A stretch of DNA of 20,113 nt, from positions 233,184-253,296 of the forward strand of contig MU646860.1 in NCBI GenBank assembly GCA_026770585.1, written 5' to 3'. Both the position numbers and the translations under genes were made by a program. Within the stretch, counting starts at the first letter, position 1. Every line of letters starts with the position of its first letter. Positions 403-18,200 of the stretch are shown here, one piece after another. This DNA is from Baffinella frigidus (taxonomy: Eukaryota > Cryptophyceae > Cryptomonadales > Baffinellaceae). Below the pieces are notes generated by a model that saw only the letters and a program-made list of their open reading frames with translations, made no database searches and had not been told where the DNA came from.

Positions 403-455
403 GTGGGGCGAATCGTGGCACACATCAAGAAGCTGCTGCCCTCGGCGTACACCCT
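403..455 (+). pseudogene. Exon 1 head copy
   Basis: Acceptor GCATCAG plus the first 17 codons of exon 1, then abrupt loss of similarity. It differs from 931-983 at six third positions and at no amino acid. It lies upstream of the intact exon. Confidence 0.65.
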
Positions 456-574
456 AAGCACTGAACCCAATCCCTACACGACTGACGGCAGTTGGGGCGC
501 GCATGAACTAACCAGAGGGCTTGGTTTGCAGGTTTGTTCGCACAGTTGTCTCTGAGGCGGGCCCGTTTCTTAAG

Positions 575-655
575 GCTCCTAGACTTTTGTATCACTCAAC
601 TCAAGGCTCAAGGGCCTCATTTAGGACCCGTGTCGAGAGTAATAAAAAAGAAGAA
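575..655 (+). repeat. Dispersed repeat, one of two inverted copies
   Basis: About 65 bp from ATCACTCAACTCAAGG to AGAGTAATAAAAAAGAAG match the reverse complement of about 1803-1875. Read in opposite strands both give CIT-LKAQ-P-LGPVSRV followed by Lys. A GAGGCGGGCCCG motif precedes this copy at 552. Confidence 0.6.
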
Positions 656-705
656 GACGTTGACTCTGATTAGCAAACAGCTGATCACCGCACCCTTCTC
701 AGCAG

Positions 706-717
706 GTGGGGCGAATC
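706..717 (+). pseudogene. Exon 1 head remnant next to an inverted-repeat element
   Basis: TCAGCAG acceptor plus GTGGGGCGAATC, matching the exon 1 start. The sequence then passes directly into the element at 717-869. The upstream context (CAGCTGATC, CACACCCTTC-like) is also shared with that of the intact exon 1. Confidence 0.5.
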
Positions 718-869
718 GGGCTTCGAGGGGATTTTCGGCCCAAATCGGGCCAACATTCAGTTACCTTGTCCGTAGGAATCCCCCTTTGTCCCTACGGGTT
801 GCCTACCGTAAGGTCGTAGGTCTGATCACTTTGGGGAGATTCAAACCCCCTTCCAAGTCCGCTGTGTGG
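717..869 (+). mobile_element. Small inverted-repeat element, family A, copy 1 (left end worn)
   Basis: Shares with 4333-4500 the segments CGGGCTTC, GGGATTTTCGGCCCAAATCG, CCGTAGGAA, CCCTACGGGTTGC and the right end AAGTCCGCTGTGTGG. The left terminus is missing its CACACAG part. No coding capacity, so it looks like a non-autonomous MITE-type element. Confidence 0.65.
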
Positions 870-930
870 CTGAGCCTGTACGTCCCTACACCCTGCACCC
901 TGCAGCTGATCCCCACACCCTTCGCGGCAG

Positions 931-1029
931 GTGGGGCGGATTGTGGCGCATATTAAGAAGCTGCTGCCCTCGGCTTACACCCTCTGGACTATGGAGTGCT
1001 TCTTCAAACTCTCGGTCTGCCACCAGTGG
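931..1029 (+). CDS. Exon 1 (first visible), unrecognised protein
   Basis: It opens after the acceptor GCGGCAG and reads 33 codons in phase 0, beginning VGRIVAHIKKLLPSAYTLW and continuing TMECFFKLSVCHQW. The donor is GTTAGT at 1030. It is the only one of about six copies in 0.4-2.15 kb that has the head, the tail and a GT donor together: the copy at 2080 has AT at that position and the copy at 403 stops after the head. An ATG inside (TMEC) is tempting as a start, but the frame is open back to the acceptor and the head is conserved with only synonymous changes in the copy at 403. An internal exon is therefore more likely. Confidence 0.5.
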
Positions 1030-1661
1030 GTTAGTGGTTCGTGAAGGGAGGGAGGGAGAGAGAGAGAGAGACAGACAGAGAGAGAGAGAGAGACAGAGAG
1101 AGAGGGAGAGATGGAGAGATAGAGAGGACATAGAAGCAAGAAGCTGCTGCCCTCGGCGTACACCCTCTGGACCATGGAGTGCTTCTTCAAACTCCCGGTC
1201 TGCCCACACGGCTTCGGGTTTCTCCTCCAGTATTATTAGGGCAGTCTGCACCCTGAACCCTGAACCCTGAATCCGACGACCCTCTGGACTATGGAGTGCT
1301 TCTTCAAACTCCCGGTCTGCTGCCACCCCGCCTCTGATTAGCAATAGCTATTGCTTATCAGCTATTGTTAATCAGCGGCAGGGTGCAGGTTGCCCTATCC
1401 AGTCCATTACAGGGCAACCTGCATTCTGCACCTAGGGCAACCTGCTCGGGAGTCAGAAGCATTAACCCCAGCAGCCTGCCCTCGGCGTACTCCCTCTGGA
1501 TTATGGAGTGCTTCTTCACACTCCTGGTCTTCTGCCGCCACCCCGCCTTTGATTAGCAATAGCAACTATGCAGGGAGCAGGTTGCCCTATCCAGTCCATT
1601 GCGGGGCAACCAGCATCCTGCACCTAGGGCAACAGCTTCTTGCTTCTATGTCCTCTCTATC

Positions 1662-1700
<39 letters not shown>

Positions 1701-1703
1701 CAA

Positions 1704-1741
<38 letters not shown>

Positions 1742-2335
1742 CCTCTCTGAGCCGGTCTGTCCCGGTTAGCCGCCATCCCTCGACGTGAGCTCTTTTTCTT
1801 CTTCTTCTTCTTCTTCTTCATTACTCTCGATACAGGTCCTAATCGAGGCTCTTGCGCCTTGAGGTGCGTGATGCAAACGACTTGAGCGGGCACCTCTATT
1901 CTCGCGACGTTGTTAGCGGGCCCGCTCGACCCTGCACCCTAGACCCTGCACCCTGAACCCTGCACGCCAGTGACGTGCATGTTTCTGGACCCTGAACCCT
2001 AGACCTGCAAAGGCATGCAGGTTTCGAAACCCTGGACCCTATATCCTGAATCCTGAACAACGTCGCGAGGATAGAGTAGTTGGCGCACACCCTCTGGACC
2101 ATGGAGTGCTTCTTCAAACTCTCGGTCTGCCGCCATTGGATGAGTGGTTCGGTGTGTGGGTTTAGGGGTTGGATTTGGTGGTTAGTTTGGGGGGTTTGGG
2201 GGTCTGGGTTTGGGTGTAGTGTTTGGGAATTGGGGGTTGGGGTCCCATTTATTAGACCGGTCCATTTATTCTCGTGGTAATTATTTAGAAGTGTTCGAAC
2301 ACTATTTATAAACCCGAAACCCTGAACCCTAAACC

Positions 2336-2367
<32 letters not shown>

Positions 2368-5300
2368 TTCCCCGCAGGGCAAGAACAAATTCCTCTTCCT
2401 GTGGCGCAACGACGAAATAAATCAAACTAAAATTGAAATTAAAATAAACCCTCAACAATAAAGCCTGAAAAATAAATCCTAAACACCTCGATCAGGGCAA
2501 GAACAAACTCCTGTTCCTGTGGTGCAACGATCTGCGCGTGTTCACCCCGAACGACCCCCCCAAGATCGAGGCGCCCAACGCTGTCAGCCACAGGGCACCG
2601 TATGACACCACATTAATTTCGGAACAAGACAGATTCTGTCCCGCTATCTTAGGCTTCTGACGCCGAAGATAAGGGTGTATGTGCTGTTTTAGGCATACGA
2701 TGATGCTATCTTGCACCTTTGTATGTGGGCAGATTCTGGTATGGTCCGAGATGACCATGCTGTCATCCACAGGGCGGGCTCCGCAGGCGACCCAAGCCAG
2801 AAATCCGGGTTTCCGAAATCGCGGTTTGTAAAATGTCTTGACACGCCCACATTATCCCGCCTGAACCCTAAACACCTCGATCAGGGGAAGAACAAGCTGC
2901 TCTTCCTGTGGTGCAACGACCTGCGCGTGTTCACCCCGAACGACCCCCCCAAGATCGAGACCTTCCTCGCACCCCCCGTCAACTCCCACGTAACCCCCCC
3001 CCCTCCACACCACCTGGTTTAGGGTTTAGCGTTTAGCGTTGAGAGTTGAGAGTTTAGAGTTCAGGGGTTTGTGGGGTTTTGGGCCAACGAATTCCCGCAT
3101 ACTTCTAAACACTTGACACTTCACCCCTGAACGACGCCCCGTAGACCCTACACTTGTAGCTACACCCTAAACCCTGAATGCTTGAGACGTCACCCCGAAC
3201 GATCCGCCGAAGATCGAGACCTTCCTCGCACCCCCCGTCAACTCCCACGTACCTCCTCCCCCCCCACCGAAAACCGAAACCCGAAAACCCCATCCCCACG
3301 TCTAAATGCTTTACAAAATAAAGATTACATTATAGTAAATGAGTAGATTTAAATCGTCAGTTGACTCCGAAGGCTTGCATGCTTCCGCGTGCTTACCCAA
3401 TCCACGTCGCGCGTCAACAGGCTCTCTATGATTTGTACCGATTCCTCTTGCTTCTCGACTGCCGTGGCACGCCCTGAAAGAGCGCTGCCCACCGAGACAA
3501 AAGTCGAGAGTGGAACGTCTCAAAGCAAAAGTGGAACCTCTGTTAACTTAAGAAGTAACAGTGGAGAATCAACCACGCCAACGCAGGATCCCCAGGACCG
3601 AAAACACGCGCAAACTGACTTTTGGCGTTCTCAGGTGGCGTCGAAGCACAGGTACGTCTTTCTATTATCTGTACCGCGAACCAACCACTTTTGGCGAGAA
3701 CGCAGGATCCCCGGTACCGAAAACACGCGAAAGTGACTTTTGACGCCTCCCTCCTTGGGGCAAGGTGCGACCTAATCCGCAAAGTTAATTACTTCCATGT
3801 TGTACCAGATGAATTGACCTTTGACATTCGCAGGTGGCCAGATGAATTGACTTTTGGCATTAGATGAATTGACGTTTGGCGTTGGCAGGTCGCGCCGATA
3901 CACAAGTACGAGAAGAAGAAGGCTTTCTATTATTTGTACCGCGAACCAACCACTTTTGGCGAGTACTCAGGATCCCTGGTGCCCAAAACACGAGAGATTG
4001 ACTTTTGGCGTTCGTAGGTGGCATCAAAGCAAGGTAAGTCTTTCTATTGTTTGTACCGCAAACCGACCACTTTTGGCTTGAACAGAGGATTCCCAGTACC
4101 GAAGACACACGAAAAAATGACTTTTGGCGTTCGTAGGTTGCGCCGAAGCACAAGTACGAGAAAAAGGACCTCAAAAAGGAGTACTTCAAATGCCCGTGCG
4201 CCGGATTCAACATCGACCCAGGTACCTCCATCACTAATGTTGCGAGGCTCTTTCATAAGGTTACGAGACTCACTCTGTTCTGGAACAGTTATGCCCGTGC
4301 GCGGGATTCAACATCGACCCAGGTACACGCACCACACAGCGGGCTTCAAAGGGATTTTCGGCCCAAATCGGGCGACCTTTCCGTTACCTTATCCGTAGGA
4401 ACTCCCCTATGTCCCTACGCCCTACGGGTTGCATACCGTAGGGTCCTGGGTCTTATCGCGTATGGGTTATTCAAAAATCTCTTCGAAGTCCGCTGTGTGG
4501 AATGCAGGTGCGCATTCCACACAGCGAATCAACATCGACCCAATCAACATCGACCCGATTCAACATCAACCCAGGTACCTCCTCCACTTAGGCTGCGAGG
4601 CTCGTTGATAAGGTTACGAGGCTCACTCAGTTCTGGAACAGTTGTGTAAAGTCGTTCGTTTTAGGTACGGCGTTACTCCCCAATTCTGCATTTAGGCAAA
4701 CCCCCCGTGCGCGGGCTTCAACATCGACCCGGGTTTAGGGTTTGGAGTTGACACATGAAAGCCAACACAGCATGAAAAGTGACATTGAGTCAGTGATCTT
4801 CCGAAATGCAATTGACATTTGGAGGGTCAAATTGACTTTTGACGCGTCCTGGTGGCAGCGTGCGACCGATCGGGGGGCCTGTTCGAGGTCTCTCAGATGA
4901 AGATCACGACCTACTTCCGTCTTTCTATCACCTGTACCGCAAATCAACCACTTTTGGCGAAAACGCTGGGTTCCCGGTACAAAAAGCTCGCGTAATTGAC
5001 ATTTGGCGCGAGTAATTGACTTTTCCCGATGGTAAGTTGACTTTTCCCGATGGCAGCGTGCGACCGGTCGGGGGGTCTGTTCGAGGTCTCTCAGATGAAA
5101 ATCACGACCTACCGCTACATGATCCTCTACCACCAATCCCAGGTGCCCCTCAACCCAAACTCCTAACCCCCAAACCCCTGAACCCGAAATCTGAACCCAG
5201 GAACCCGAAACCTGAAACCCGAAACCCAAAACCATAACCCGAAAACTACCACCAATCCCAGGTTCGCGAAGCGCCCTATTTCAGGTTAGTTGAGAGGCGC

Positions 5301-8300
5301 GTTTTGTACGGGAATTGGAGCCAATTCTTCAGATTCGGCCGGGTTTTGTACCAGATGAAGATTACGACCTACCGCTGCTTGATCCTCTACCACCAATCGC
5401 AGGTACCCCATCTCTGTCCCAGTCTATTTGGGCTCACTGATTTGGTGGTCCCAGACTCTTTTTTTCTCTCGAAAGTTGACGGATTTGTACCGCACACCCA
5501 GCATGTCAACTTGAGAATAGTCCTCCAACGTGCCGCTGCTTGATCCTCTACCACCAATCCCAGGTACCCCCAAACCCTAAACCCTGAACCCGAAGCCCTG
5601 AATCCTGAACCCTAAACCCTACACCATAAACCCTAAACTCTAAACCCTGAAACCTGAACCCTGAACCCGAAACCAGAAATCAGAAACCCAAACCCAAAAC
5701 CCAAAAACCCAAACCCAAAACCCCAAAACCCGCCCTAAACTCTAAACCTCGAAATCACGGCGGCAGGCCCACTTCGAAAAGGACGTAGCGATTCTAGAGG
5801 ACCCCTAAACCCAAAACCCGAAACCCGAACCCCGAAACCCGAAACCCAAAACCCGAACTCCGAACCCCGAAACCCGAACCCCGAAACCACACAAAAATAT
5901 CAACCCTAACCACGCCAGGGTGCACTCTGGCGATTTTTTTCCTTTTTTTTTCGAGGGGGTGTTTTAAAGCGTCTCAGGAGACGCTTGTTGACTTTTGAAG
6001 ACCACGGCCTTGCGGGGGGGTTGACTTTTGGCGACACCTTTTCAAGACTCTAGCGTGGAACCCACCCGAAACCCTCCGCCAGGCGCACCTCGAAAAGGAC
6101 GTGGCGATTCCAGAGGATGTGGAGCTAGTCAAGCTCTCGCCCTACCGCAAGAAATGGATCGAGGAGGACGAAATGGTAACCCCCCCCCCCCCAACAAAAC
6201 AGCATAAAAGCTAATGCCTAATACGTAATGCCTAATAGCTAATGCCTAATACGGAATAGGTAATAGCTAATGCCTAATACGGAATAGGTAATAGCTAATG
6301 CCTAATACGTAATAGGTAATAGGTAATAGCTGATATCTAGCGCCTAGAACACGTGGAGTTAGTCAAGCTCTCGCCCTACCGCAAGAAATGGATCGAGGAG
6401 GACGAAAGGGTGCACCCTCATCCATGAACCCTAATGAGTGTAGGGTGCAGGGTGTAGGGTGCAGGGTGCAGGGTGCAGGGTGAAGGGTGAAGGGTGTAGG
6501 GTGCAGGGTGCAGGGTATAGGGTGTAGGTGCGAGGTGTTAGCCAGAGGATGTCGAACTTGTGAAGCTTTCCCCCTACCGCAAGAAATCGATCGAGGAAGA
6601 CGAAATGGTGCACCCTAAACCCTAAACCCTAAACCCTAAACCCTAAACCGTACAGAAATGGTCCCGAACCCTCAACCCTAAATGGTCCCGAACCCTAAAC
6701 CACAATCCCTAACAGCTTATACCTAGCCCCCACAACCTGATCCCTAAACCCCAAACCCCAAACCCTAAACCAGGTTAAATTCCGCGAAAATGCCGACCTC
6801 AAAGCCTACGAGCTCAAGTCAATCCCTGGACCCTAAACCCCAAACCCTAAACCCCACGCCAGGTTAAATTCCGCGAAAACGCGGACCTCAAAGCGTACGA
6901 GCTCAAGTCGGGGTCGCTTGTGTACCAGGTTCGCCCTAAAGCCTAAACCCTAAACCCTAAAACCTGAACCCTAAACCCAGACGGCGACTGGTAGAAACCC
7001 TAAGCCCCAAACCCCAAACCCTAAACCCTGAACCCTGAACCCTGAACCCTGAACCCTCAAACCTAAACCCTAAACCCAAAACCCAAAACCCTAAATTCAA
7101 AACCCTAAACCCTAAAGCCTAAACCCTACCCAACCCCCTACCTAACCCCCTACCTACCCCCCTACCTAAACCCCTACCTAAACCCCTACCTAGAACCCTA
7201 AACCATAAACCATAAACCATAAACCCTAAACCCTAAACCCTAAACCCTAAACCCTAAACCCTAAACCCTAAACCCTAAACCCTAAACCCCAAACCTGAAA
7301 CCCGAAAACAGATGCCGCGGTACAGAGACCATGTGCGCGAGCTGAACGGGTAAACCCCGAAACCCTTACCCCAAACCCTAAACCCTAAACCCCAAACCCC
7401 AAACCCCAAACCCGAAAACCCCAAACCCACATCCCGGAAACGGGAACCATGAACCATGAACCATGAACCATGAACCATGAGCCATGAACCATGAACCATG
7501 AACCATGCACCCGAAGCCCGAGACCCGGATCCCGGAAACGGGAACCCGAAACCCGAAACCATGAACACGAAACACGAAACCCGAAACCCGAAACCCAAAA
7601 CCCCAAACCCCAAACCATGAACCCCAAAACCCTAACCCCAAAACCCGAACCCCAGGTGGGAGCAAATCCCGCCTTTGCCCGTGTCCAACGCCGACCCCCT
7701 GGTCTTCAAGTTCCTCTCAAAGCTCGCCATCGTCGACGGGCAGGTGCGAGCAGTTCAAATCACGATAAATCACATATGCTATCTTAAGGGTGTAACTTGC
7801 TATTTTTGCTCCGGCAGAGCTCTGAGATAGCACGAAGCCTACCCGTAAGATAGTGAAGAGGTGGTGTGTCGAACGCCGACCCCCTCGTCTTCAAGTTCCT
7901 CTCAAAGCTCGCCATCGTCGATGGGTAGGTGCGAGTACCTCAAATCACGATAATGTGGAAAAATATTCAATTTAAATCACGTTTTTTGCTGTCTTACGCG
8001 TGTGTAATTTTGTTGTCTTCGCCTCGATGTAGCTGTAACGTAGCACGGAACCCACCCGTAAGATAGTGGAAAGGTGGTGTGGCAAACGGGGATCCGTTCG
8101 TGTTGAAGTTCCTTTCGAAACTCGCGATCGTCGATGGTCAGGTGCGATGACCTTAGATAACGTTGTGTGATATCTTACGGGTGTAATTTGCGATCTTAGC
8201 CTCGAGATAGCTTCAACACGAAACCAAACGCTAAGATAGTGGTCACGGACCTGCACCGGTGCATTAATGAACCCTGCATCTCGATTCAGGGTTTACCCTA

Positions 8301-11300
8301 ACCCTCACACCCTAAACACCAAACCCTAAACACCAAACACCAGAAACCAGAAACCAAACACCAAACACCAAACACCAAACACCAAACACCAAACACCAAA
8401 CACCAAACACCAAACACCACACCCCACACTCCACACACCCACACACCCACACACCCACACACCCACACACCCACACACACCCCACACCCACACCCCAAAC
8501 CCCACAACCCACACCCCAAACCCCACATCCCACACCCCAAACCCCAAACCCCACTCCCTAAACCCCAAACCCCACTCCCCAAATTCCACACACTACACCC
8601 CCAAACTCCAAACCCCAAACCCTAAACCCTAACCCCCAAACCCTGAAACCTAACCCCACACCCCAAACAGGTGCTGCAAAGCCACCCGGTCAACGAATAC
8701 TCCAAGCAAGACATCCAGGTGACCCTACACCCCAAACCCTAAACCCGAAACCCGAAACTTGAAACCCGAAACCCTACCGCCCCAAGGTCAATTTCTTACA
8801 TATATATATACGAAAACACCAGAAAACACCAGTTTTGAAACACCAGTTTTCGGTGTCGGGGATGCTGCTTCCTGTGACGTAGAAATTAAGATTTCTTCGA
8901 TTTTCCAGGAAACTCTGCAAAGGTGGGTGATTCGCGGGTTAGGGTTCTCGGGTTAGCCTAACCCGGCCAGCGAATACTCCAAGCAGGACATCCAGGTGAC
9001 CCTAAAACCGAAAACCGAAACTCTGACCCCTCAACCCTGACCCCTCAACCCGAGACCCGAAACCCGAGCCCCCCTAAACCCTAAACACTAAACCCTAAAA
9101 CCCTCAACCCCAAACCCTAAACCCTAAACCCTAAACCCCAAACCTCAAACCCCAAACCCTTCCTCCAGGACTTCCGGCGGTTCTTCCACAACATAGTGAT
9201 GAAGAACGCGGACCACGATTCCTTCCTCGAACGCAAGATGAAGGTCTCACCTCACCTCTAAGCCCCACCCCCAAAGCCTCCAGGATTTAGGGTTTAGGGA
9301 TCTGACCTATACCCTCAACCCTAAACCCGAAACCCTAAACCCTAAACCCTAATCCCTAATCCCTAATCCCTAATCCCTAAACCCTAAGCCTAAGCCCTAA
9401 ACCCTAAACCCTAAGCCCTGAACCCTAAACCCTAAACCCCAAAGCGACGGCCACCCTCTGCCCTAACGTACTGGCACGGGCCCAACTGCTTGAAAAGAGT
9501 TGGGGTTCAGGTCCAAAAGAGTTGGGGTTTAGGTCTTAGGATTCGTCTCAACGACTCTCTCTCACACAATCAGCAACCCTAAATGCTGAACCGCCCCAGG
9601 TGTGTGAGCCCGAAAATAGATGGGCTGGTCATTAAAGCTCACTGTGTGGCCCAGTGTGTAACCCTAAACCCTAAACCCTAAACCCTAAACCCTAAACCCT
9701 AAACCCTAAACCCTACCAGGTGTGTGATGCGTGCTGCATCAAATTCACGTCATCAGCAGACGACAACATCTCTAACCTGAAAAAAATCGGTTAATAAAAT
9801 GTGTTTGTACCGAGCAATTCTTAATTAGTACCACGAAAATAGATAGACCGATCTGCGAAAACCACTGTGTGGGAAGGCCCTCAATCGCACCCGTAAACAC
9901 TATCTCGCCAGGTATGTGGCGCGTGCTGCATGGAATTCACATCCTCGGCGGATGACAACATTTCGCTCGAGACAATAAAATATGTTTGTACCGTGCAATT
10001 GTTAATTAGTACCACGAAAATAGATGGACTGGGCATTAAAGCTCACTGTGTGGCCAGGTGTGTGACGCGTGCTGCATCAAATTCACGTCATCAGCAGACG
10101 ACAACATCTCGCTCGAAATGACCAAGCTGGTCGTCGGAACACCCAACGACACTTTCTTTTCCACCCGCAAGTAACCCCCCCCCCCCTACGGGTTTGGTGC
10201 ACGGCTTACTGCTTTAGGGTTTAGGGGTTTGGGTCCTAGCCTTTTTTTTTATGGTGTAGGGTGCAGGGTGAAGTGTGTAGGGTGTGGGGTTAACCGTGTA
10301 GGGTTCAGGCGGCAACATCTCTCTCGAAATGACCAAGCTGGTTCTGTAGAGTGTAGGGTGTAGGGTGTAGACTGTAGGGTGAAGTGTGTAGGGTGTAGGG
10401 GGCGTAAACGTGGGTAGGGTGTAGGGGGCGTGAAGAAGGTGTCGTCGGAACACCCAACGACACCTTCTTCTCCACGCACAAGTGCGTCCCCCCCCCACCC
10501 CACCCCCCCACCCCAGCATTTTGGTTCACGGCTTACTGCTTTAGGAGTTGGGGTTTCGGGTCCTAGCCTTTCTGTATGGTGTAGGGTGCAGGGTGCAGGC
10601 TTGGGGGTTGACACTGTAGGGTGTAGGGTGTAGGGTGTAGGGTGAAGTGTGTAGGGTGTAGGGGGCGTAAACCCCGACTGTTGTGGGGCTGACCCCGCAC
10701 ACCGGCGCTCAGTAAGCACACAGCCACAGCCCTTCACGCCATGGAAGAAAGAATGTATTACCCAACTTGATGGTCAAACCCTCGTGGCAGGGCTCATAAC
10801 CCTAGTGGATTCTACCGCCACGACTCTGACCCCCACCCCGGAACCCCTGGCTCGCACGGTAAACCACCCCCAAACTCCACATCAGTGAAGGGGGCAGGGG
10901 CCTCACCCTGAACCCTAAACCCTAAACCCTAAACCCTACACCCTAAACCCTAAACCCTAAACCCTACACCCTAAACCCTAAACCCTGTGACCCTGTGACC
11001 CTAAACCCTGTCTCGGATCAAACCCCTCAACCCTAACCCACCCTCCCCTCCCCTCTCCCCCACAGATCCATGCGCTCATCAATGTCAAGCTCCAAATTCC
11101 TCGACCCAGCCGCACACTCCTTCAAAGCCTTCCAGTCGGAGCCGTCACACGGGATGCTCCCCGCTTTGACGAAGCAGGGCTCAGGCCGCCCCCCGCGCTC
11201 CAAGACCTCGCTGGTACACCCTACACCCTACACCCTACACCCTACACCCCTTTTTTCGCGGCACCCTTCACAACCCACCCTGACACCCAATCCCCAACCT

Positions 11301-12931
11301 CAAACCCCACACCCCACACCCCACACCCCAAACCCCTAAAACCCACACCCCACACCCCAGGGCTTCAACGATAAGAAACACGCGGAGGCTCAGGGGGAGG
11401 ATGAGGAGGGTCCGCGGTCCAACTCGGTTATGGAGGGGGGAGAGCGGCCAGGGGACGCGGGTTAACCCCAAACCCTATATACTGAACACTAAACACTTAA
11501 ACCCTAAACCCTAAACCCTTCACCCTAAACCTTAAACCCTGACCCATCACTATAAACCCTAAACTCGATACCTGAAACCTTGAACCCTAAACCCTAAACC
11601 CTGACTCATCACTATCAACCCTAAAACCTAAACACTAAAACCTAAACCCTAAATCCTAAACCCTAACACATCACTATAATCCCTAAACCCTAAACCCTGG
11701 ACCCTTAACCCCAACCCATCACTAAAACCCCTAAACCCTAAATCCTAAATCCTAAGTCCTAAACCCGAAAACTTAAAACCTAAACCCTCGACCCTAGGGA
11801 CGGATGGGAGAGGGCGTGGCACTGGGAGTTTGGCGGCGATCGGGGGGGCATCAACAGCATCAGTAGGAGGTACACCCTACACCCTACACCCTACACCCTA
11901 CACCCTACACCCTACACCCTACACCGTCAACCCTACACCCTACACCCTACACCCTACCCGAAACCCGAAACCCGAAATCGCAAAGATAACTCTCTTGGGG
12001 GGTTTGGCGGCGATTGGGGGGGCATCAGCAGCATCAGGGTGTGTAGGAGGTACTCCCTACAACTTAAACCATGAACTCTGAACTCTGAACCCTGAACTCT
12101 GAACCCCAAACCCCACACCCCAAGCCCCAAACTCCAAACCCTAAACACCAAGCGCGAGACTATTCGTCTCCTAAACCATAAACCACAAACTCTAAACCCG
12201 CACCCCTCAACCCTAACCCCTGAAACCAGGAGGAAATGCGTCATTGTCGATGTCTCTCCCGAACAAGAACCCTACACCCTGAACCTTAAAAACCCTGAAC
12301 CCTGAACCCCAAACACACACACTCTCTCTCCCCTCCTGCCTCTCCAGCCGAAAACCTAAACCCCACACCCCAACCCCAGGGGGGAATGCGTCATTGTCAA
12401 TGTCTCTCCCGAGCAAGAGCGCGGGGCGCATGCACTCCAAGAACGTCCGGGATTGGATCCAGTTCTTCTATCAGGTGCGCCTCACACCCTCCCAACCTTT
12501 ACCCCCATTACAGCAGCCCTGAACGACGCCTCACCCCCATTACAGCACCCCTAAACCGGTACCCCGTTTTTAGGAGGCGGATCTGCGGGCGTCAGCGGCC
12601 GCGCGCGCAGCCTCCAAGAAGCCTCACAACCTGTGTTGTATCCTCACAACCTGTGTTCTAGCCTCCCTAGAGTTGACGAATTACCCTACCTCCCTAGAGT
12701 TGACGAATTACTACCTCCCTAGAGTTGACGAATTACCCCCGTTACAGCACCCCTAATCCACACCTTACCCCCATTACAGCACCCCTAAACGGCGCCTCAC
12801 CCCCATTACAGCACCCCTAAAACTTACCCCGTTTTCAGGAGGCGGATCTGCGGGCGTCAGCGGCCGCGCGCGCAGCCTCCAAGAAGTCCATGGCCTCCCC
12901 CTACGAGATGCCCCTGCCCTTCCGCGAATGA
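931..12931 (+). CDS. Fifteen-exon gene, unrecognised protein, 5' end probably outside window
   Basis: This is the overall gene model. Fifteen exons (listed separately) join through 14 GT-AG introns whose phases agree at every junction and give 1332 coding bases, or 443 residues plus a TGA stop. No in-frame stop occurs in the joined frame. The first exon begins at an acceptor (CAG/GTG), not at an ATG, so upstream exons are expected. The protein has no obvious signal peptide or membrane segment. Its middle is rich in charged and aromatic residues, and the last roughly 140 residues are Ser/Ala/Lys-rich and low-complexity. I do not recognise the family. The exons are assembled by eye from frame, splice sites and the presence of eroded copies around each one. 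In some places a different copy could be the one used, especially for exons 1 and 2. Confidence 0.62.
1045..1130 (+). repeat. GA microsatellite
   Basis: Imperfect (GA)n with GACA and GGGA interruptions. It explains the long Arg/Glu and Ser/Leu frames on both strands. Confidence 0.9.
1138..1204 (+). pseudogene. Exon 1 tail copy
   Basis: Repeats the exon 1 codons from KKLLPSAYTLWTMECFF to the cysteine near its end, downstream of the intact exon and just after a GA microsatellite. Confidence 0.6.
1278..1330 (+). pseudogene. Exon 1 tail copy
   Basis: Repeats ACCCTCTGGAC through CGGTCTGC, the 3' half of exon 1. It forms the start of a duplicated block that continues with GATTAGCAATAG and the 1385 palindrome. 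Confidence 0.58.
1385..1636. repeat. Two-copy block with internal palindrome
   Basis: The segment beginning GCAGGTTGCCCTATCC at 1385 recurs at about 1577. The first copy holds the inverted repeat GCAGGTTGCCCT ... AGGGCAACCTGC (1385-1422). Each is preceded by a copy of the exon 1 tail and GATTAGCAATAG, so the full unit is roughly 190-200 bp. Confidence 0.65.
1475..1545 (+). pseudogene. Exon 1 tail copy, more diverged
   Basis: A further copy of the 3' two-thirds of exon 1 with several substitutions (TTATGG for CCATGG, CACACTCC for CAAACTCC). It belongs to the second unit of the duplicated block. Confidence 0.55.
1655..1748 (+). repeat. CT microsatellite
   Basis: Long (CT)n broken by a GTCCAACCCCCCC insert. 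Confidence 0.9.
1789..1875 (-). repeat. Dispersed repeat, inverted copy with CTT tract
   Basis: A (CTT)n tract followed by ATTACTCTCGATACAGGTCC, the reverse complement of the copy at 575-655. GA- and CTT-type microsatellites lie at the ends of both copies. Confidence 0.6.
2080..2142 (+). pseudogene. Exon 1 tail copy with lost donor
   Basis: Copy of the exon 1 tail including the following TGAGTGGTTCG. The donor position reads ATGAGT instead of GTTAGT. Confidence 0.58.
2378..2413 (+). pseudogene. Exon 2 head copy
   Basis: CCCGCAG acceptor plus GKNKFLFLWRND codons, followed by AT-rich intron sequence. Upstream of intact exon 2. Confidence 0.6.
2496..2570 (+). pseudogene. Exon 2 head copy, 25 codons
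   Basis: Acceptor CTCGATCAG as in exon 2, then 25 codons identical in protein sequence to exon 2 with five third-position differences and none changing an amino acid. It diverges after AAGATCGAG. Confidence 0.68.
2641..2713. mobile_element. CTATCTTA inverted-repeat element (family C), diverged copy
   Basis: Contains CGCTATCTTAGG, AGATAAGGGTGTATGTG and GATGCTATCTT, the end motifs seen in the three elements near 7.8-8.24 kb. The arrangement is scrambled. Confidence 0.4.
2885..2989 (+). CDS. Exon 2, unrecognised protein
   Basis: The acceptor is CTCGATCAG and the exon has 35 codons in phase 0, including GKNKLLFLWCNDLRVFTPND and PPKIETFLAPPVNSH. The donor is GTAACC at 2990. It is the only complete one of four related copies: the copies at 2378 and 2496 are heads with acceptors and lie upstream, and the copy at 3192 is a tail with a GTACC donor and lies downstream. 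The segment is hydrophobic and aromatic at first, then proline-rich. Confidence 0.65.
3192..3248 (+). pseudogene. Exon 2 tail copy with donor
   Basis: The last 19 codons of exon 2 with three synonymous differences, ending CCCAC and a GTACC donor. Downstream of intact exon 2. Confidence 0.66.
3300..3557 (+). other. Intron 2 unique stretch
   Basis: Non-repetitive, AT-richer sequence (AAATAAAGATTACATTATAG near 3318). No coding exon, RNA gene or repeat family could be supported here. Confidence 0.4.
3635..3655 (+). pseudogene. Exon 3 head copy
   Basis: TCTCAG acceptor plus GTGGCGTCGAAGCACAGGTA, matching the start of exon 3 with a Pro to Ser change. Confidence 0.55.
3889..3921 (+). pseudogene. 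Exon 3 head copy
   Basis: TGGCAG acceptor plus the codons VAP-HKYEKK, then a jump into TTTCTATTATTTG of the next array unit. Confidence 0.58.
4018..4034 (+). pseudogene. Exon 3 head copy, short
   Basis: TTCGTAG acceptor plus GTGGCATCAAAGCAAGG, then the next array unit. Confidence 0.5.
4137..4221 (+). CDS. Exon 3, unrecognised protein
   Basis: The acceptor is GTTCGTAG and the exon has 28 codons plus one base (phase 0 in, phase 1 out). It contains VAPKHKYEKKDLKKEYFKC then PCAGFNIDP. The donor is GTACCT. The first half is strongly basic and the second half carries a CPC pair. Three head copies lie upstream (3635, 3889, 4018) and three tail copies downstream (4292, 4527, 4703). This is the only full-length copy. 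Confidence 0.7.
4292..4321 (+). pseudogene. Exon 3 tail copy with donor
   Basis: TGCCCGTGCGCGGGATTC through ATCGACCCAG followed by GTACAC. Downstream of intact exon 3. Confidence 0.6.
4333..4500 (+). mobile_element. Small inverted-repeat element, family A, copy 2 (complete)
   Basis: Terminal repeats CACACAGCGGGCTTC and GAAGTCCGCTGTGTG enclose about 140 bp without coding capacity. The right end continues into a perfect 15-bp inverted repeat, CGCTGTGTGGAATGC at 4491-4505 and its complement at 4512-4526, suggesting a second abutting terminus. It inserted close to the tail copy at 4292. Confidence 0.72.
4527..4574 (+). pseudogene. Exon 3 tail, tripled
   Basis: The AATCAACATCGACCC motif appears three times in a row. 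The last ends CCCAGGTACCTCC, identical to the exon 3 donor. It lies immediately after the family A element and its palindrome. Confidence 0.58.
4703..4731 (+). pseudogene. Exon 3 tail copy, donor changed
   Basis: CCCGTGCGCGGGCTTC through ATCGACCCGGGTTTAG: the donor AGGTAC has become GGGTTT. Confidence 0.55.
4859..4914 (+). pseudogene. Exon 4 head copy
   Basis: GGTGGCAG acceptor, the two-base phase overhang and 18 codons of exon 4, with three synonymous and no amino-acid differences. It then breaks into TTCCGTCTTTCTAT of the array seen before exon 3. Confidence 0.68.
5057..5142 (+). CDS. Exon 4, unrecognised protein
   Basis: The acceptor is GATGGCAG. The exon has two bases completing the split codon from exon 3 and then 28 codons, including CDRSGGLFEVSQMKITTYRY and MILYHQSQ. 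The donor is GTGCCC. The phase fits exon 3 exactly. The aromatic, beta-strand-like pattern suggests a folded domain but does not identify it. One head copy lies upstream (4859) and tails lie downstream (5246, 5352, 5534). Confidence 0.72.
5246..5261 (+). pseudogene. Exon 4 tail copy, short
   Basis: CTACCACCAATCCCAG followed by GTTCGC, the last codons of exon 4 plus a donor. Confidence 0.5.
5352..5402 (+). pseudogene. Exon 4 tail copy
   Basis: The last 17 codons of exon 4 with a GTACCC donor. Three synonymous and two amino-acid differences (Y to C, M to L). Confidence 0.65.
5472..5523 (+). mobile_element. 52-bp hairpin element (family D), single copy in the plus-strand gene
   Basis: AAAGTTGACGGATTTGTACC at the left and GTCAACTT plus GAGAATAGTCC at the right. 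The same element is abundant at 15.1-18.1 kb. It sits between two exon 4 tails. Confidence 0.75.
5534..5563 (+). pseudogene. Exon 4 tail copy
   Basis: The last 10 codons, sharing the C and L variants of the copy at 5352, with a GTACCC donor. The shared variants show it derives from the 5352 copy or the same source. A hairpin element lies between the two. Confidence 0.62.
5568..5890 (+). repeat. Degenerate telomere-like heptads
   Basis: CCCTAAA, CCCTGAA, CCCGAAA and CCCAAAA units on the coding strand, filling intron 4 around the exon 5 head copy. Confidence 0.85.
5767..5802 (+). pseudogene. Exon 5 head copy
   Basis: GCGGCAG acceptor plus 12 codons of exon 5 (three synonymous and two amino-acid differences), then heptads. 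Confidence 0.6.
6083..6175 (+). CDS. Exon 5, unrecognised protein
   Basis: The acceptor is CTCCGCCAG and the exon has 31 codons in phase 0, including AHLEKDVAIPEDVELVKLSP then YRKKWIEEDEM. The donor is GTAACC. It is highly charged. The head copy is at 5767 and the tail copies are at 6353 and 6542. The tail at 6542 has seven synonymous changes and one amino-acid change (W to S) across 22 codons. Confidence 0.72.
6195..6340 (+). repeat. Tandem repeat of GCTAATGCCTAATACG units
   Basis: Five or so units of about 30 bp built from CTAATGCCTAATACG and GAATAGGTAATA. Unlike the heptads, it is AT-rich. Confidence 0.85.
6353..6409 (+). pseudogene. Exon 5 tail copy
   Basis: The last 19 codons of exon 5 with one synonymous change and ATG to AGG at the end, followed by GTGCAC. 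Confidence 0.65.
6431..6536 (+). repeat. GGGTGCA/GGGTGTA heptad array, G-rich on plus
   Basis: About 13 units, oriented opposite to the neighbouring CCCTAAA arrays. Confidence 0.85.
6542..6607 (+). pseudogene. Exon 5 tail copy, synonymously diverged
   Basis: The last 22 codons of exon 5 with seven synonymous changes and one W to S change, followed by GTGCAC. It shares the GTGCACCCT downstream sequence with the copy at 6353. Confidence 0.68.
6774..6820 (+). pseudogene. Exon 6 head copy
   Basis: CAG acceptor plus 15 codons of exon 6 with three synonymous and no amino-acid differences. Confidence 0.68.
6863..6928 (+). CDS. Exon 6, unrecognised protein
   Basis: The acceptor is CACGCCAG and the exon has 22 codons in phase 0, starting VKFRENADLKAYELK and ending SGSLVYQ. 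The donor is GTTCGC. A head copy with the same acceptor sits 89 bases upstream at 6774 and differs only at three synonymous sites. Confidence 0.7.
6929..7300 (+). repeat. CCCTAAA heptads, longest perfect run
   Basis: Includes ten or so perfect CCCTAAA units at about 7222-7288, plus CCTACCTAACCC and AACCATA variants. It is an interstitial telomere-type array inside intron 6. Confidence 0.9.
7312..7349 (+). CDS. Exon 7 (38 nt), unrecognised protein
   Basis: The acceptor is GAAAACAG. The exon has 12 codons plus two bases, MPRYRDHVRELN, with donor GTAAAC. It is a very small exon sitting between two long heptad arrays. Its phase 2 end is exactly completed by the single leading G of exon 8. No copies were found. 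Confidence 0.62.
7448..7506 (+). repeat. (GAACCAT)n heptad array
   Basis: Eight 7-bp units, bracketed by the palindrome-like CCCGGAAACGGGAAC at 7433 and again at 7532. Confidence 0.88.
7656..7743 (+). CDS. Exon 8, unrecognised protein
   Basis: The acceptor is CCCCAG. One base completes the split Gly codon, then come 29 codons: WEQIPPLPVSNADPLVFKFL and SKLAIVDGQ. The donor is GTGCGA. Two tail copies with the same donor follow at 7866 and 8079 as part of a tandem unit of about 210 bp that also carries a small inverted-repeat element. Confidence 0.72.
7779..7853. mobile_element. CTATCTTA inverted-repeat element (family C), copy 1
   Basis: CTATCTTAAGGGTGTAA at the left and TACCCGTAAGATAG at the right, about 75 bp, non-coding. 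Confidence 0.68.
7866..7928 (+). pseudogene. Exon 8 tail copy with stop
   Basis: 21 codons of exon 8 with three synonymous changes. The final Gln codon is TAG, followed by the same GTGCGAG donor context. Confidence 0.66.
7989..8066. mobile_element. CTATCTTA inverted-repeat element (family C), copy 2
   Basis: CTGTCTTACGCGTGTG at the left and CACCCGTAAGATAG at the right. It follows the second exon 8 tail. Confidence 0.62.
8079..8141 (+). pseudogene. Exon 8 tail copy, diverged but open
   Basis: 21 codons with nine synonymous and four amino-acid differences, a usable frame and a GTGCGA donor. It could serve as an alternative exon, but no acceptor directly precedes it. Confidence 0.66.
8170..8239. 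mobile_element. CTATCTTA inverted-repeat element (family C), copy 3
   Basis: ATATCTTACGGGTGTAATTTG at the left and ACGCTAAGATAG at the right. It follows the third exon 8 tail, giving one element per tandem unit. Confidence 0.6.
8310..8640 (+). repeat. AACACCA and CACACCC minisatellite passing into CCCCAAA heptads
   Basis: Tandem AAACACC units at 8336-8418, then ACACACCC units at 8430-8490, then CCCCAAA/CCCACAC units. It explains the long Gly/Val/Trp/Cys frames on the minus strand. Confidence 0.88.
8671..8718 (+). CDS. Exon 9 (48 nt), unrecognised protein
   Basis: The acceptor is CCAAACAG and the exon has 16 codons in phase 0, VLQSHPVNEYSKQDIQ. The donor is GTGACC. A tail copy (SEYSKQDIQ plus GTGACC) lies at 8969. 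Confidence 0.66.
8969..8995 (+). pseudogene. Exon 9 tail copy
   Basis: Nine codons ending the exon 9 sequence with a GTGACC donor (one synonymous and one N to S change). Confidence 0.6.
9000..9165 (+). repeat. Heptads of intron 9
   Basis: CCCTAAA, CCCGAAA, CCCTCAA and CCCCAAA units directly before the exon 10 acceptor. Confidence 0.8.
9169..9243 (+). CDS. Exon 10, unrecognised protein
   Basis: The acceptor is CTTCCTCCAG and the exon has 25 codons in phase 0: DFRRFFHNIVMKNADHDSFL then ERKMK. The donor is GTCTCA. It is predicted to be amphipathic and helical. It is one of two exons for which I see no copies. Confidence 0.7.
9310..9445 (+). repeat. CCCTAAA/CCCTAAT/CCCTAAG heptads
   Basis: About 18 units in intron 10. 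Confidence 0.88.
9657..9716 (+). repeat. Perfect CCCTAAA run
   Basis: About eight perfect units ending directly at the acceptor of an exon 11 head copy. Confidence 0.9.
9720..9773 (+). pseudogene. Exon 11 head copy
   Basis: Acceptor ACCAG plus 18 codons of exon 11 with two synonymous and no amino-acid changes. Confidence 0.68.
9912..9971 (+). pseudogene. Exon 11 head copy, strongly synonymous divergence
   Basis: Acceptor CGCCAG plus 20 codons with eight synonymous and three amino-acid differences. The codons for SSADDNISLE differ at six third positions without any protein change. Confidence 0.7.
10058..10170 (+). CDS. Exon 11, unrecognised protein
   Basis: The acceptor is GTGGCCAG. The exon has 37 codons plus two bases: VCDACCIKFTSSADDNISLE then MTKLVVGTPNDTFFSTR. 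The donor is GTAACC. It carries a CxxCC cluster. Heads at 9720 and 9912 lie upstream. A middle fragment at 10311 and a tail with a GTGCGT donor at 10441 lie downstream, so the exon appears cut in two on its downstream side. Confidence 0.72.
10311..10343 (+). pseudogene. Exon 11 middle fragment
   Basis: NISLEMTKLV codons within heptads, downstream of the intact exon (two synonymous differences, one D to G). Confidence 0.6.
10441..10481 (+). pseudogene. Exon 11 tail copy with donor
   Basis: VVGTPNDTFFST codons, three synonymous differences and R to H, ending in AA before a GTGCGT donor, as in the intact exon. Confidence 0.65.
10671..10900 (+). other. Intron 11 unique stretch
   Basis: Non-repetitive sequence between heptad arrays. 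I see no exon or RNA gene in it. Confidence 0.35.
10905..11035 (+). repeat. CCCTAAA/CCCTACA heptads
   Basis: About 15 units just before the exon 12 pyrimidine tract. Confidence 0.88.
11066..11213 (+). CDS. Exon 12, Ser-rich segment of unrecognised protein
   Basis: A good pyrimidine tract precedes the acceptor (CTCTCCCCCACAG). One base completes the Lys codon begun in exon 11, then 49 codons follow, including SMRSSMSSSKFLDPAAHSFK and SGRPPRSKTSL at the end. The donor is GTACAC. It is low-complexity, Ser/Pro/Lys-rich and probably disordered. No copies were seen. Confidence 0.7.
11361..11460 (+). CDS. Exon 13, acidic segment of unrecognised protein
   Basis: The acceptor is CACCCCAG. The exon has 33 codons plus one base: GFNDKKHAEAQGEDEEGPRS then NSVMEGGERPGDA. 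The donor is GTTAAC. It is acidic and Gly-rich, probably a disordered linker. The donor is the weakest in the chain, but the phase is confirmed by exon 14. Confidence 0.62.
11462..11800 (+). repeat. CCCTAAA heptads in higher-order units
   Basis: Heptads punctuated by CCATCACTATAAACC or its variants at 11544, 11607, 11664 and 11716, giving a larger unit of about 55-65 bp. Confidence 0.8.
11828..12060 (+). repeat. Duplicated block around a CCCTACA array
   Basis: TTTGGCGGCGAT(C/T)GGGGGGGCATCA, then CAGCATCAG and AGGAGGTAC, is present at 11830 and 12001, flanking about 11 CCCTACA units. The first copy is followed directly by the array. Confidence 0.75.
12230..12268 (+). pseudogene. Exon 14 head copy
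   Basis: AAACCAG acceptor plus NASLSMSLPNK codons. It ends at ACAAGAAC and passes into CCCTACACCC. Confidence 0.62.
12380..12474 (+). CDS. Exon 14, unrecognised protein
   Basis: The acceptor is CAACCCCAG. Two bases complete the Gly codon, then 31 codons follow, including SMSLPSKSAGRMHSKNVRDW and IQFFYQ. The donor is GTGCGC. A head copy with its own acceptor is at 12230 (one synonymous change, one Ser/Asn change). Confidence 0.68.
12498..12825 (+). repeat. Intron 14 short tandem motifs
   Basis: Three 26-bp units of CTCCCTAGAGTTGACGAATT at 12660-12738, and five scattered copies of CCCCATTACAGCACCCC. The second motif ends in ACAG and could act as a decoy acceptor. Confidence 0.75.
12574..12621 (+). 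pseudogene. Exon 15 head copy, identical
   Basis: TTTTTAG acceptor plus 16 codons identical in DNA to exon 15, so it is a recent duplication, unlike the older copies of other exons. Confidence 0.68.
12839..12931 (+). CDS. Exon 15, C-terminal end of unrecognised protein
   Basis: The acceptor is CGTTTTCAG. The exon has 30 codons (EADLRASAAARAASKKSMAS then PYEMPLPFRE) and a TGA at 12929-12931. The tail is Ala/Lys-rich. A head copy identical over 48 nt lies at 12574 after a TTTTTAG acceptor. The GAGGCGGGCC motif array starts about 20 bases after the stop. No clear polyadenylation signal was seen. Confidence 0.7.
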   Translation, partial: EADLRASAAARAASKKSMASPYEMPLPFRE

Positions 12932-14478: not shown

Positions 14479-14547
14479 GTCCTCCCGCCACCCGCGCGGG
14501 GGGGTTGGAAATCAGTGAATTGGTCAACCGTACCCCGCCCCTCTACA

Positions 14548-14707
14548 ACACAGCGGACTTTGAAGGGGTTTTGAATAACCCCTAAGCGACAAGACCTAGG
14601 ACCCTACGGTAGGCAATTCGTAGGGGCATGGGGGGGTTCCTACGGATAAGGTTAACGGAAACTCGGGCTCTCAGAGCCCGAAAATCCCTTCGTAGCCTGC
14701 TGTGTGG
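14548..14707 (-). mobile_element. Family A element, copy 3 (reverse orientation)
   Basis: AACACAGCGGACTTTGAAGG at the left and CTGCTGTGTGG at the right. The interior matches the reverse complement of 4333-4500, including CGGGCTCTCAGAGCCCG where the forward copies read CGGCCCAAATCGGGC. Confidence 0.72.
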
Positions 14708-14967: not shown

Positions 14968-15090
14968 CTACAGGGGTACCTCGCTCATAAGAAACAGCCC
15001 CGCCCTAGGACCCTACAGTAGGCCTATGCGTAGGGTCTTATGGTGGTCCTAAGGGGGGAGCGGTTTCGTATGAGCGAGGTACCCCTGTAG
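14968..15090. mobile_element. Family B element, copy 3 (complete)
   Basis: CTACAGGGGTACCTCGCTCA to TGAGCGAGGTACCCCTGTAG, 123 bp, with CCTAGG-rich palindromic centre. Confidence 0.8.
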
Positions 15091-15121
15091 ACCTGCTTCG
15101 TTGGCCTGAGAGCGCTCTCAC

Positions 15122-15149
15122 GACTTCTCGTCCGCGTCCACCGCCGCCG
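15122..15149 (+). pseudogene. Inverted copy of the minus-gene WKDD exon tail
   Basis: DFSSASTAA codons followed by a GTACC donor, here on the plus strand, 20 bp from a hairpin element in the matching orientation (15170-15222). The exon tail plus element moved or inverted as a unit. Confidence 0.65.
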
Positions 15150-15169
15150 GTACCCCCCTCCCCCGCCCC

Positions 15170-15222
15170 AAAGTTGACGGATTTGTACTGAGATCCCAGC
15201 TTTGTCAACTTATGAATAGTCC
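15170..15222 (+). mobile_element. 52-bp hairpin element (family D), plus orientation
   Basis: AAAGTTGACGGATTTGTACT ... TTTGTCAACTTATGAATAGTCC. The inner sequence GAGATCCCAGCTTTG matches the copy at 18037 more closely than other copies. Confidence 0.8.
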
Positions 15223-15311
15223 GGCAACCCTAGGTGTGAGCGTGTCGCGAAGGCGGCTCGCGGCTCTGGGAAGGGTGTCCGCGGGCGGGTAGCTGGCAGG
15301 TAGGTGTGCAG

Positions 15312-15402
15312 TGCTCCCCTAGGACCACCATAGGGCCCTACGCATAGGCCTACTGTAGGGTCCTAGGGGGGAGCGGTTTCTTATGAGCGAGGTACCCCTG
15401 TA
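15312..15402. mobile_element. Family B element, copy 4, left end missing
   Basis: GCTCCCCTAGGACCACCATA to GAGCGAGGTACCCCTGTA. The left arm is absent. Confidence 0.72.
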
Positions 15403-17964: not shown

Positions 17965-18025
17965 CGGCGGCGGTGGAGACCGACGAGAAGGCGTCCTTCC
18001 AGGCCGAGAGCCAGCTCTCCCGCAC
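17965..18025 (-). pseudogene. WKDD exon tail copy, upstream of the intact exon
   Basis: Minus-strand ESWLSAWKDAFSSVSTAA codons and a GTAGCG donor. Confidence 0.62.
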
Positions 18026-18036
18026 TCGGGTTGGCG

Positions 18037-18088
18037 GACTATTCATAAGTTGACAAAGCTGGGATCTCAGTACAAATCCGTCAACTTT
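18037..18088 (-). mobile_element. 52-bp hairpin element (family D)
   Basis: GACTATTCATAAGTTGACAA ... CCGTCAACTTT. Confidence 0.78.
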
Positions 18089-18108
18089 GGAGCGGAAGAG
18101 GGAGGTAC

Positions 18109-18200
18109 CGGCGGCGGTGGAGGCGGACGAGAAGTCGTCTTTCCAGGCCGAGGCGTTCGGTGCCCTCCTCGGGGGGTAGGCGGGAGCCGCGAGAGGGGCG
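18109..18200 (-). pseudogene. Mosaic of PPTPEE-type exon and WKDD exon tail
   Basis: Reading the minus strand, GCTCCCGCCTACCCCC and GAGGAGGGC of the LPPTPEEG exon (compare 19612-19680) are joined directly to ASAWKDDFSSASTAA with a GTACCT donor. The two parts are in different relative frames, so it is a broken junction, not a fused exon. Confidence 0.55.

Follow-up and report, generated by a model that had tools for sequence, protein, structure and literature searches.

Partial exon copies in the introns of a cryptophyte gene differ from the intact exons mainly at synonymous sites

How can broken pieces of exons that lie in introns differ from the intact exons mainly at sites that leave the protein unchanged? 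This question is raised by a stretch of 20,113 nucleotides from Baffinella frigidus (MU646860.1:233184-253296, in an assembly of 382 Mb), which we call the window and which carries the 3' part of one plus-strand gene, probably that of a flagellar docking-complex protein. We recognized 15 exons (E1 to E15), from position 931 to the stop codon at 12931, and the gene model is otherwise intact. A blastn search with each exon plus 30 bp as query (E ≤ 0.01) found partial copies of 11 of the 15 exons in the adjoining introns, all listed copies lying on the same strand as the exon. The copies sit between exons of the gene; the one at 403-455 precedes the first exon in the window and is presumably intronic too. 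Twenty-nine copies were counted, and those at 5246, 13146, 703, 4017, and 9596 were excluded as very short or gapped (the last three were spotted by eye).

Between the copies and their intact exons we counted 77.5 synonymous (S) and 31.5 amino-acid-changing (N) differences, corresponding to a proportion of synonymous differences (pS) of 0.279, a proportion of amino-acid-changing differences (pN) of 0.032, and a pN/pS of 0.114 (0.084-0.154, bootstrap over exons). By codon position, 79 differences fell at third positions and 30 at first and second positions. An earlier sequence-only reading had claimed just such a bias from 16 copies with 62 S and 17 N counted by eye; the bias holds, in a set that proved larger. 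Its counts were reproduced for the 5' part of E1 upstream of that exon (403-455; 6 S, 0 N), the 5' part of E2 upstream (2496-2570; 5 S, 0 N), and the 3' part of E5 downstream (6542-6607; 7 S, 1 N). A further case, the 5' part of E11 upstream, read as 8 S and 3 N over 9912-9971, is real but has 7 S and 3 N over 9912-9970 on recounting. The same reading had argued that neutral decay would give mostly amino-acid changes, and our simulations agree: neutral change was 26% synonymous if the copy alone mutates and 41.5% if the exon adds synonymous changes only, against an observed 71% (the simulated spectrum included one misaligned E15 row, with slight effect). The chance of so large a synonymous excess was 6e-23 if the copy alone mutates freely and 2e-10 if the exon lineage adds synonymous-only changes at an equal rate. 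The codon-based ratio that it had proposed as a check was thus computed on all copies and lies well below 1; a value near 1, which would have spoken against its claim, was not seen. The bias is not a product of the search, since neutral fragments that we planted were recovered by the same blastn in 572 of 600 cases and gave pN/pS of 0.65-1.12 over five rates.

Comparable copies occur in other genes of this genome. We drew a sample of 46 stretches from three family searches, comprising 30 of 51 kinesin matches (those with loci), 11 of 11 dynein AAA_6 matches, and 5 of 6 matches to PROCN of PRP8. Twenty-five stretches had no copy (short exons among them), 15 had an accepted copy, and six were set aside: L040 for telomere-like repeat hits, L042 and L071 as copies of L037 and L064, and L047, L048, and L050 for weak, low-complexity, or minus-strand hits. 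One accepted stretch, L027, stayed outside the counts because its sole copy was gapped. The remainder yielded 39 ungapped copies of 14 exons with 160 S and 78 N, a pN/pS of 0.177 (0.122-0.242), where exon limits are those of hidden Markov model matches rather than splice sites. All gapped copies were dropped, as were the ungapped L054 +858, L056 -442, and L067 +227, whose addition would raise the total to 166 S and 85 N. These copies were again local and on the strand of the neighboring exon, with two minus-strand hits. Stretches with long exons (on C65, C82, C131, and C942) had no copies, and many with short exons likewise had none. At the kinesin loci L067 and L072, one exon has four and five upstream partial copies, respectively; at L072 two pairs of copies have a spacing of 369 bp, which suggests that stretches with silent copies underwent further duplication. 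The match list for a helicase family shows a similar overlapping pair on C231, known from that list alone. PF00562 had no match in the genome although PF08083 did, so a family search may here miss multi-exon genes.

Do the copies owe their synonymous bias to their own history, or only to that of the living exon? We separated changes private to one fragment, in which that fragment differs while the exon and all other covering fragments agree. Such changes numbered 77 S and 56 N over 295 codons (P = 1e-14 against the neutral 26% synonymous), and changes private to the exon 19 S and 3 N. The fragment branches themselves were therefore coding, and not the exon branch alone. Guanine-cytosine content at third codon positions (GC3) was 0.827 in exons and 0.818 in fragments of the window, and 0.817 and 0.803 elsewhere; C/G exchanges were prominent, as expected of two working versions and not of decay. 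Differences at third positions show no apparent asymmetry between exon and copy. No stop codon falls within the counted codons of window fragments, while elsewhere there were four stops and several gapped copies.

The amino-acid-changing differences tell of a later phase. Among the 31 residue changes in the window, two of which are counted twice because of sister fragments of E4, 21 fall at residues invariant across all orthologues seen and three match an orthologue, while 118 of 253 residues are invariant overall. These changes thus spare conserved residues no more than chance would, which indicates decay. Across all 68 fragments, pS and pN were not correlated (Spearman rho = -0.09), whereas a single-clock model, in which S and N both grow with fragment age, expects a rho of 0.31-0.59 (P ≤ 0.0013). 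Given the private synonymous bias, this missing correlation, the unchanged GC3, and the changes at invariant residues, the copies diverged first as working coding sequence, were then cut and silenced, and then decayed. With the 8 bp nearest the splice site set aside, divergence of the intron sequence beside the fragments amounts to 15.6% over 570 bp of the window and to 14.8% over 731 bp of the other genes, and 36 gap events were counted; both percentages should be underestimates, since they cover the alignable part alone. pN lies well below this flank divergence and pS above it; with about 15% divergence plus indels in the flanks, the neutral clock ran further than pN shows. Free decay after truncation is supported but not uniform. 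Fragments that share a junction with non-exon sequence split after cutting, and change since then is compatible with neutrality in a trio at L072 (8 N, 4 S over three overlapping pairs, the junction of the third member being matched by eye, with an offset) and in a pair at L069 (3 N, 2 S).

Some fragments look as if they had been matched to their exon recently. Positions 7681-8245 hold three tandem units, each consisting of the 3' part of E8 and about 100-150 bp of intron. In the first two units the exon part is nearly identical and the intron part clearly diverged, so that the copy at 7866-7927 (3 S, 0 N) closely resembles E8 while its intron has drifted. The copy of the 5' part of E11 at 9720-9772, upstream of that exon, is likewise near-identical (1 S, 0 N). 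Recent conversion to the exon would explain both. Patching by gene conversion had also been offered by the sequence-only reading as a source of the synonymous bias, a role that we disfavor by argument: conversion should reset S and N sites alike and therefore should not create the bias alone.

The arrangement of the copies is as regular as their divergence. Upstream copies retain more of the 5' part of the exon and downstream copies more of the 3' part, a rule obeyed by 67 of the 68 counted copies in the window and the other genes (35 upstream, 32 downstream). It was scored by the end missing fewer bases, some pieces lacking bases at both ends, and only the piece at 10306-10342 (1 S, 2 N) departs from it, an inner part of E11 found downstream of that exon. 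None of the 68 spans the entire exon or matched stretch; the only hint of a complete copy is the gapped, near-whole L072 +158 (91 of 123 bp, 74.7% identity, three gap openings), which is outside the counts. All 28 window copies checked have the splice dinucleotide on their intact side, AG in upstream copies and GT in downstream ones, read four bases further in for a copy of E4. At the cut ends of the 29 window copies we found no clear excess of splice dinucleotides: GT stood at 3 of 12 ends (0.30 expected from random places) and AG at 9 of 17 (0.33 expected), the AG count being slightly but not clearly above expectation. Upstream and downstream break points of the same exon lie closer together than shuffled ones (mean 7.0 versus 13.6 nt, P = 0.005, 13 exons; L067 was omitted because its matched stretch contains intron), a hint that a full exon was placed between the two halves of an old one.

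Where could diverged working versions have come from? We lean, if only just, towards the copies being cut remains of these exons in other functional versions, that is alleles or haplotypes, captured by recombination or break repair; both the nature of the sources and the joining mechanism are what we infer. The sources would have belonged, as alleles or haplotypes, to a recombining population of high diversity or to a hybridizing relative. Unequal exchange, or repair of an in-exon break on the homologous chromosome, could bring in a complete exon next to the two pieces of the broken one or into the gap between them, and only arrangements keeping one intact exon would survive. The synonymous bias would then be inherited from before silencing and not maintained in the intron. 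Among the options raised by the sequence-only reading, recombination with diverged working alleles or paralogues is the best supported, by the private synonymous bias and the separate clocks of S and N, although the paralogue or second allele whose exons should match the copies was not found in the assembly at either the protein or the fragment-DNA level. A protein search of the whole assembly with the window gene placed 29 of 30 matches at the window locus and one weak match elsewhere (E = 1.06), and at the DNA level the fragments 8066-8145 and 6542-6607 matched the window locus only; these searches covered the window gene and assembled sequence. At L057, L066, and L067, divergence among the fragments of one exon is as large as their divergence from that exon, which points to more than two source versions. 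A strict origin from two haplotypes is disfavored for the same reason, some exons having several mutually diverged fragments.

Several observations weigh against this reading. With no other locus found in the assembly, the donors are hypothetical, seen neither as a paralogue nor as a second allele. At about 0.3, the mean pS is higher than the roughly 0.13-0.20 given for very diverse species in PMC8270832, which makes hybridization or a multi-copy past possible; the same source puts neutral diversity at about 20% in a barnacle, 16% in C. brenneri, and 13% in some populations of Schizophyllum commune. Because the fragments of an exon are in part related to each other, the counts are not fully independent. 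Pairs that should have changed freely since cutting can be S-biased, as with the E8 pair (10 S, 4 N) and the L057 pair (3 S, 0 N), both with shared junctions, and the E11 pair at 9720 and 9912 (8 S, 3 N), where post-cut intron sequence is common to both by eye; all same-side fragment pairs together have a pN/pS of 0.24. The spread of S among fragments was only moderately above binomial (chi-squared = 112.7, df = 67), less by our reckoning than a simple neutral coalescent would give. E3 lacks matching break points (nearest 23 nt), and outer copies were not clearly older than inner ones (25 versus 19 pairs).

Other histories must be set beside that of captured alleles. The sources could have been other copies within one genome, whether tandem genes, homeologues, or the copies of a polyploid state. 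Having diverged under selection, they would have given rise to the fragments and then disappeared. A multi-copy past fits the private coding-constrained branches and the several mutually diverged sources, but we think it unlikely, given that no second copy of the window gene was found in the assembled 382 Mb and that the kinesin and dynein pattern would need donor loss at many loci (donors having been searched for the window gene only). Alternatively, the copies may once have been full tandem exons, used in a mutually exclusive or redundant manner and truncated later. Long coding constraint and the splice dinucleotide on every intact side checked would follow naturally; random truncation, however, should put either kind of part, 5' or 3', on either side of the exon, contrary to the single rule obeyed by nearly all copies, and none of the counted copies is whole, the near-whole piece at L072 being the only hint. 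This makes former tandem exons decidedly improbable in our view. Translation of the copies as alternative partial exons, now or until very recently, would account for the synonymous bias and for the lack of stops in counted window codons, even though a TAG lies just past those of the copy at 7866. The sequence-only reading had likewise allowed for long-translated alternative exons, an option that is not supported for the present copies: without a whole copy, with cut ends lacking clear partner splice sites (AG being somewhat above expectation), and with two-thirds of window residue changes at invariant positions and stops and gaps elsewhere, they are unlikely to be alternative exons now, and we regard this possibility as highly improbable.

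Diverged exon halves beside full exons would be expected if the assembly had fused diverged haplotypes into a chimera, and four flanking 10-kb stretches do read as the letter N throughout, which hides the surroundings of the contig. Up to five upstream copies per exon, shared junctions, and decay at invariant residues are all hard to obtain from two mixed haplotypes, which renders a chimera very unlikely. We give least credence to plain partial duplications that decayed from birth while the synonymous sites of the live exon evolved unusually fast. Such decay would explain how the copies are arranged and why the fragment pairs at L072 and L069 are near-neutral, but the changes private to fragments are themselves S-biased, and S and N are uncorrelated.

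The gene itself could be placed by homology. The joined-exon translation matches ten proteins, from sources including Rhodomonas salina and, as we read a truncated name, Hemiselmis, with 78% identity over the whole query in the best case, while neither the window gene nor three orthologues matched a Pfam family. Compared with solved structures, the orthologue P0003 matched TbDC65 (E = 3e-21; we take Tb to stand for Trypanosoma brucei) and the outer-dynein-arm (ODA) distal docking-complex protein dDC4 (E = 9e-21). On the strength of these two matches, the gene probably encodes a docking-complex protein of the outer dynein arm, and hence of the flagellum.

All these exons and copies of the window lie on the plus strand, and counts are given as S, N. 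E1 (931-1014; VGRIVAHIKKLLPSAYTLWTMECFFKLS), recognized by its frame, its flanking AG and GT, and matches to P0001-P0010, has four downstream copies of its 3' part, at 1138-1196 (2, 0), 1279-1313 (0, 0), 1476-1525 (1, 3), and 2087-2123 (1, 0), in addition to the upstream one at 403-455. The 5' part of E2 (2885-2989) recurs upstream at 2378-2413 (3, 2) as well as at 2496-2570, and its 3' part downstream at 3190-3249 (3, 0). Around E3 (4137-4221) there are two upstream 5' pieces, at 3635-3656 (1, 2) and 3889-3918 (2.5, 1.5), and three downstream 3' pieces, at 4291-4321 (1, 0), 4554-4573 (0, 2), and 4704-4731 (3, 0). E4 (5057-5142) is preceded by a copy of its 5' part at 4855-4914 (3, 0) and followed by copies of its 3' part at 5352-5401 (3, 2) and 5533-5562 (0, 2), both residue changes of the latter being common to the former. 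E5 (6083-6175) has a 5' piece upstream at 5767-5801 (2, 2) and 3' pieces downstream at 6353-6409 (1, 1) and, as noted, 6542-6607; E6 (6863-6928) has only a 5' piece upstream, at 6774-6820 (3, 0). Downstream of E8 (7656-7743), the copy of its 3' part at 8079-8140 (12, 4) shares its cut junction with that at 7866, whose counted codons are directly followed by the TAG. The 3' part of E9 (8671-8718) recurs downstream at 8961-8995 (1, 2). For E11 (10058-10170), the 3' part is copied downstream at 10441-10480 (3, 1), beyond the inner piece, and the upstream copies are those at 9720 and 9912. The 5' parts of E14 (12380-12474) and of the last exon, E15, with the stop codon (12839-12931), recur upstream at 12230-12268 (2, 1) and at 12574-12621, the latter with zero differences in counted codons. 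No copies were detected for E7 (7312-7349), E10 (9169-9243), E12 (11066-11213), and E13 (11361-11461, its 3' end uncertain by one base). Between E13 and E14, at 11786-12060, are two similar coding-like pieces that we failed to fit into the gene model.

The window also holds interspersed element families whose members lie in opposite orientations, at 763-874 and 14541-14652, 14969-15084 and 15287-15402, and 15120-15233 and 18025-18138, some of them resembling miniature inverted-repeat transposable elements by eye. One interspersed element adjoins a short fragment of E1, at its cut end near 720. Introns (e.g., 7000-7300, 8300-8640, and 9660-9720) are full of degenerate arrays of CCCTAAA-like (telomere-like) heptamers and of CT/GA runs.

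What would the capture of exon versions imply? Gene variants otherwise lost may have left a readable record in introns, those of this flagellar gene as well as those of others. A more specific proposal, which we put forward tentatively and doubt more than we believe, is that exons were repeatedly replaced by a diverged working version inserted into the old exon, with the halves left in the flanking introns. If so, introns genome-wide would grow by this process and hold a layered record of past alleles. One genome would sample other, perhaps extinct, exon versions, making past diversity and exchange readable from a single individual. Introns would also gain length by a route that deposits coding sequence in them, a possible trap for gene finders, and testable predictions would follow on diversity and recombination in cryptophytes, about whose nuclear population genetics little is known to our knowledge.

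How, then, does this locus compare with known systems? In our literature search, none of the titles listed, a part of those among open-licence papers, concerned exon halves so arranged or their synonymous bias. Tandem exon duplication with mutually exclusive splicing (PMC9741552) involves whole exons encoding homologous but distinct peptides. As there, the algal copies are local, on the same strand, and marked by coding constraint; unlike those exons, they are pieces with one splice site kept and nearly the same peptide, and none of the 68 counted copies is complete with both acceptor and donor. Hyperdiverse species (PMC8270832) would supply functional versions that differ almost only at synonymous sites, whereas the diversity of the alga is deduced from pieces within one genome rather than from population data. 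Templated insertion at double-strand breaks would resemble the present case in that a full exon, copied into a break, could come to lie between the two halves, but the insert would need to be a whole functional exon from a diverged template. Closest in form are the relics that partial tandem duplication leaves in introns, which decay neutrally from birth. The algal copies share with such relics a local, same-strand origin, breaks inside the exon, and one intact exon kept, and differ from them in not having been neutral from birth, their private branches having been coding first. The novelty therefore lies in local partial duplication with a coding past that known relics do not have.

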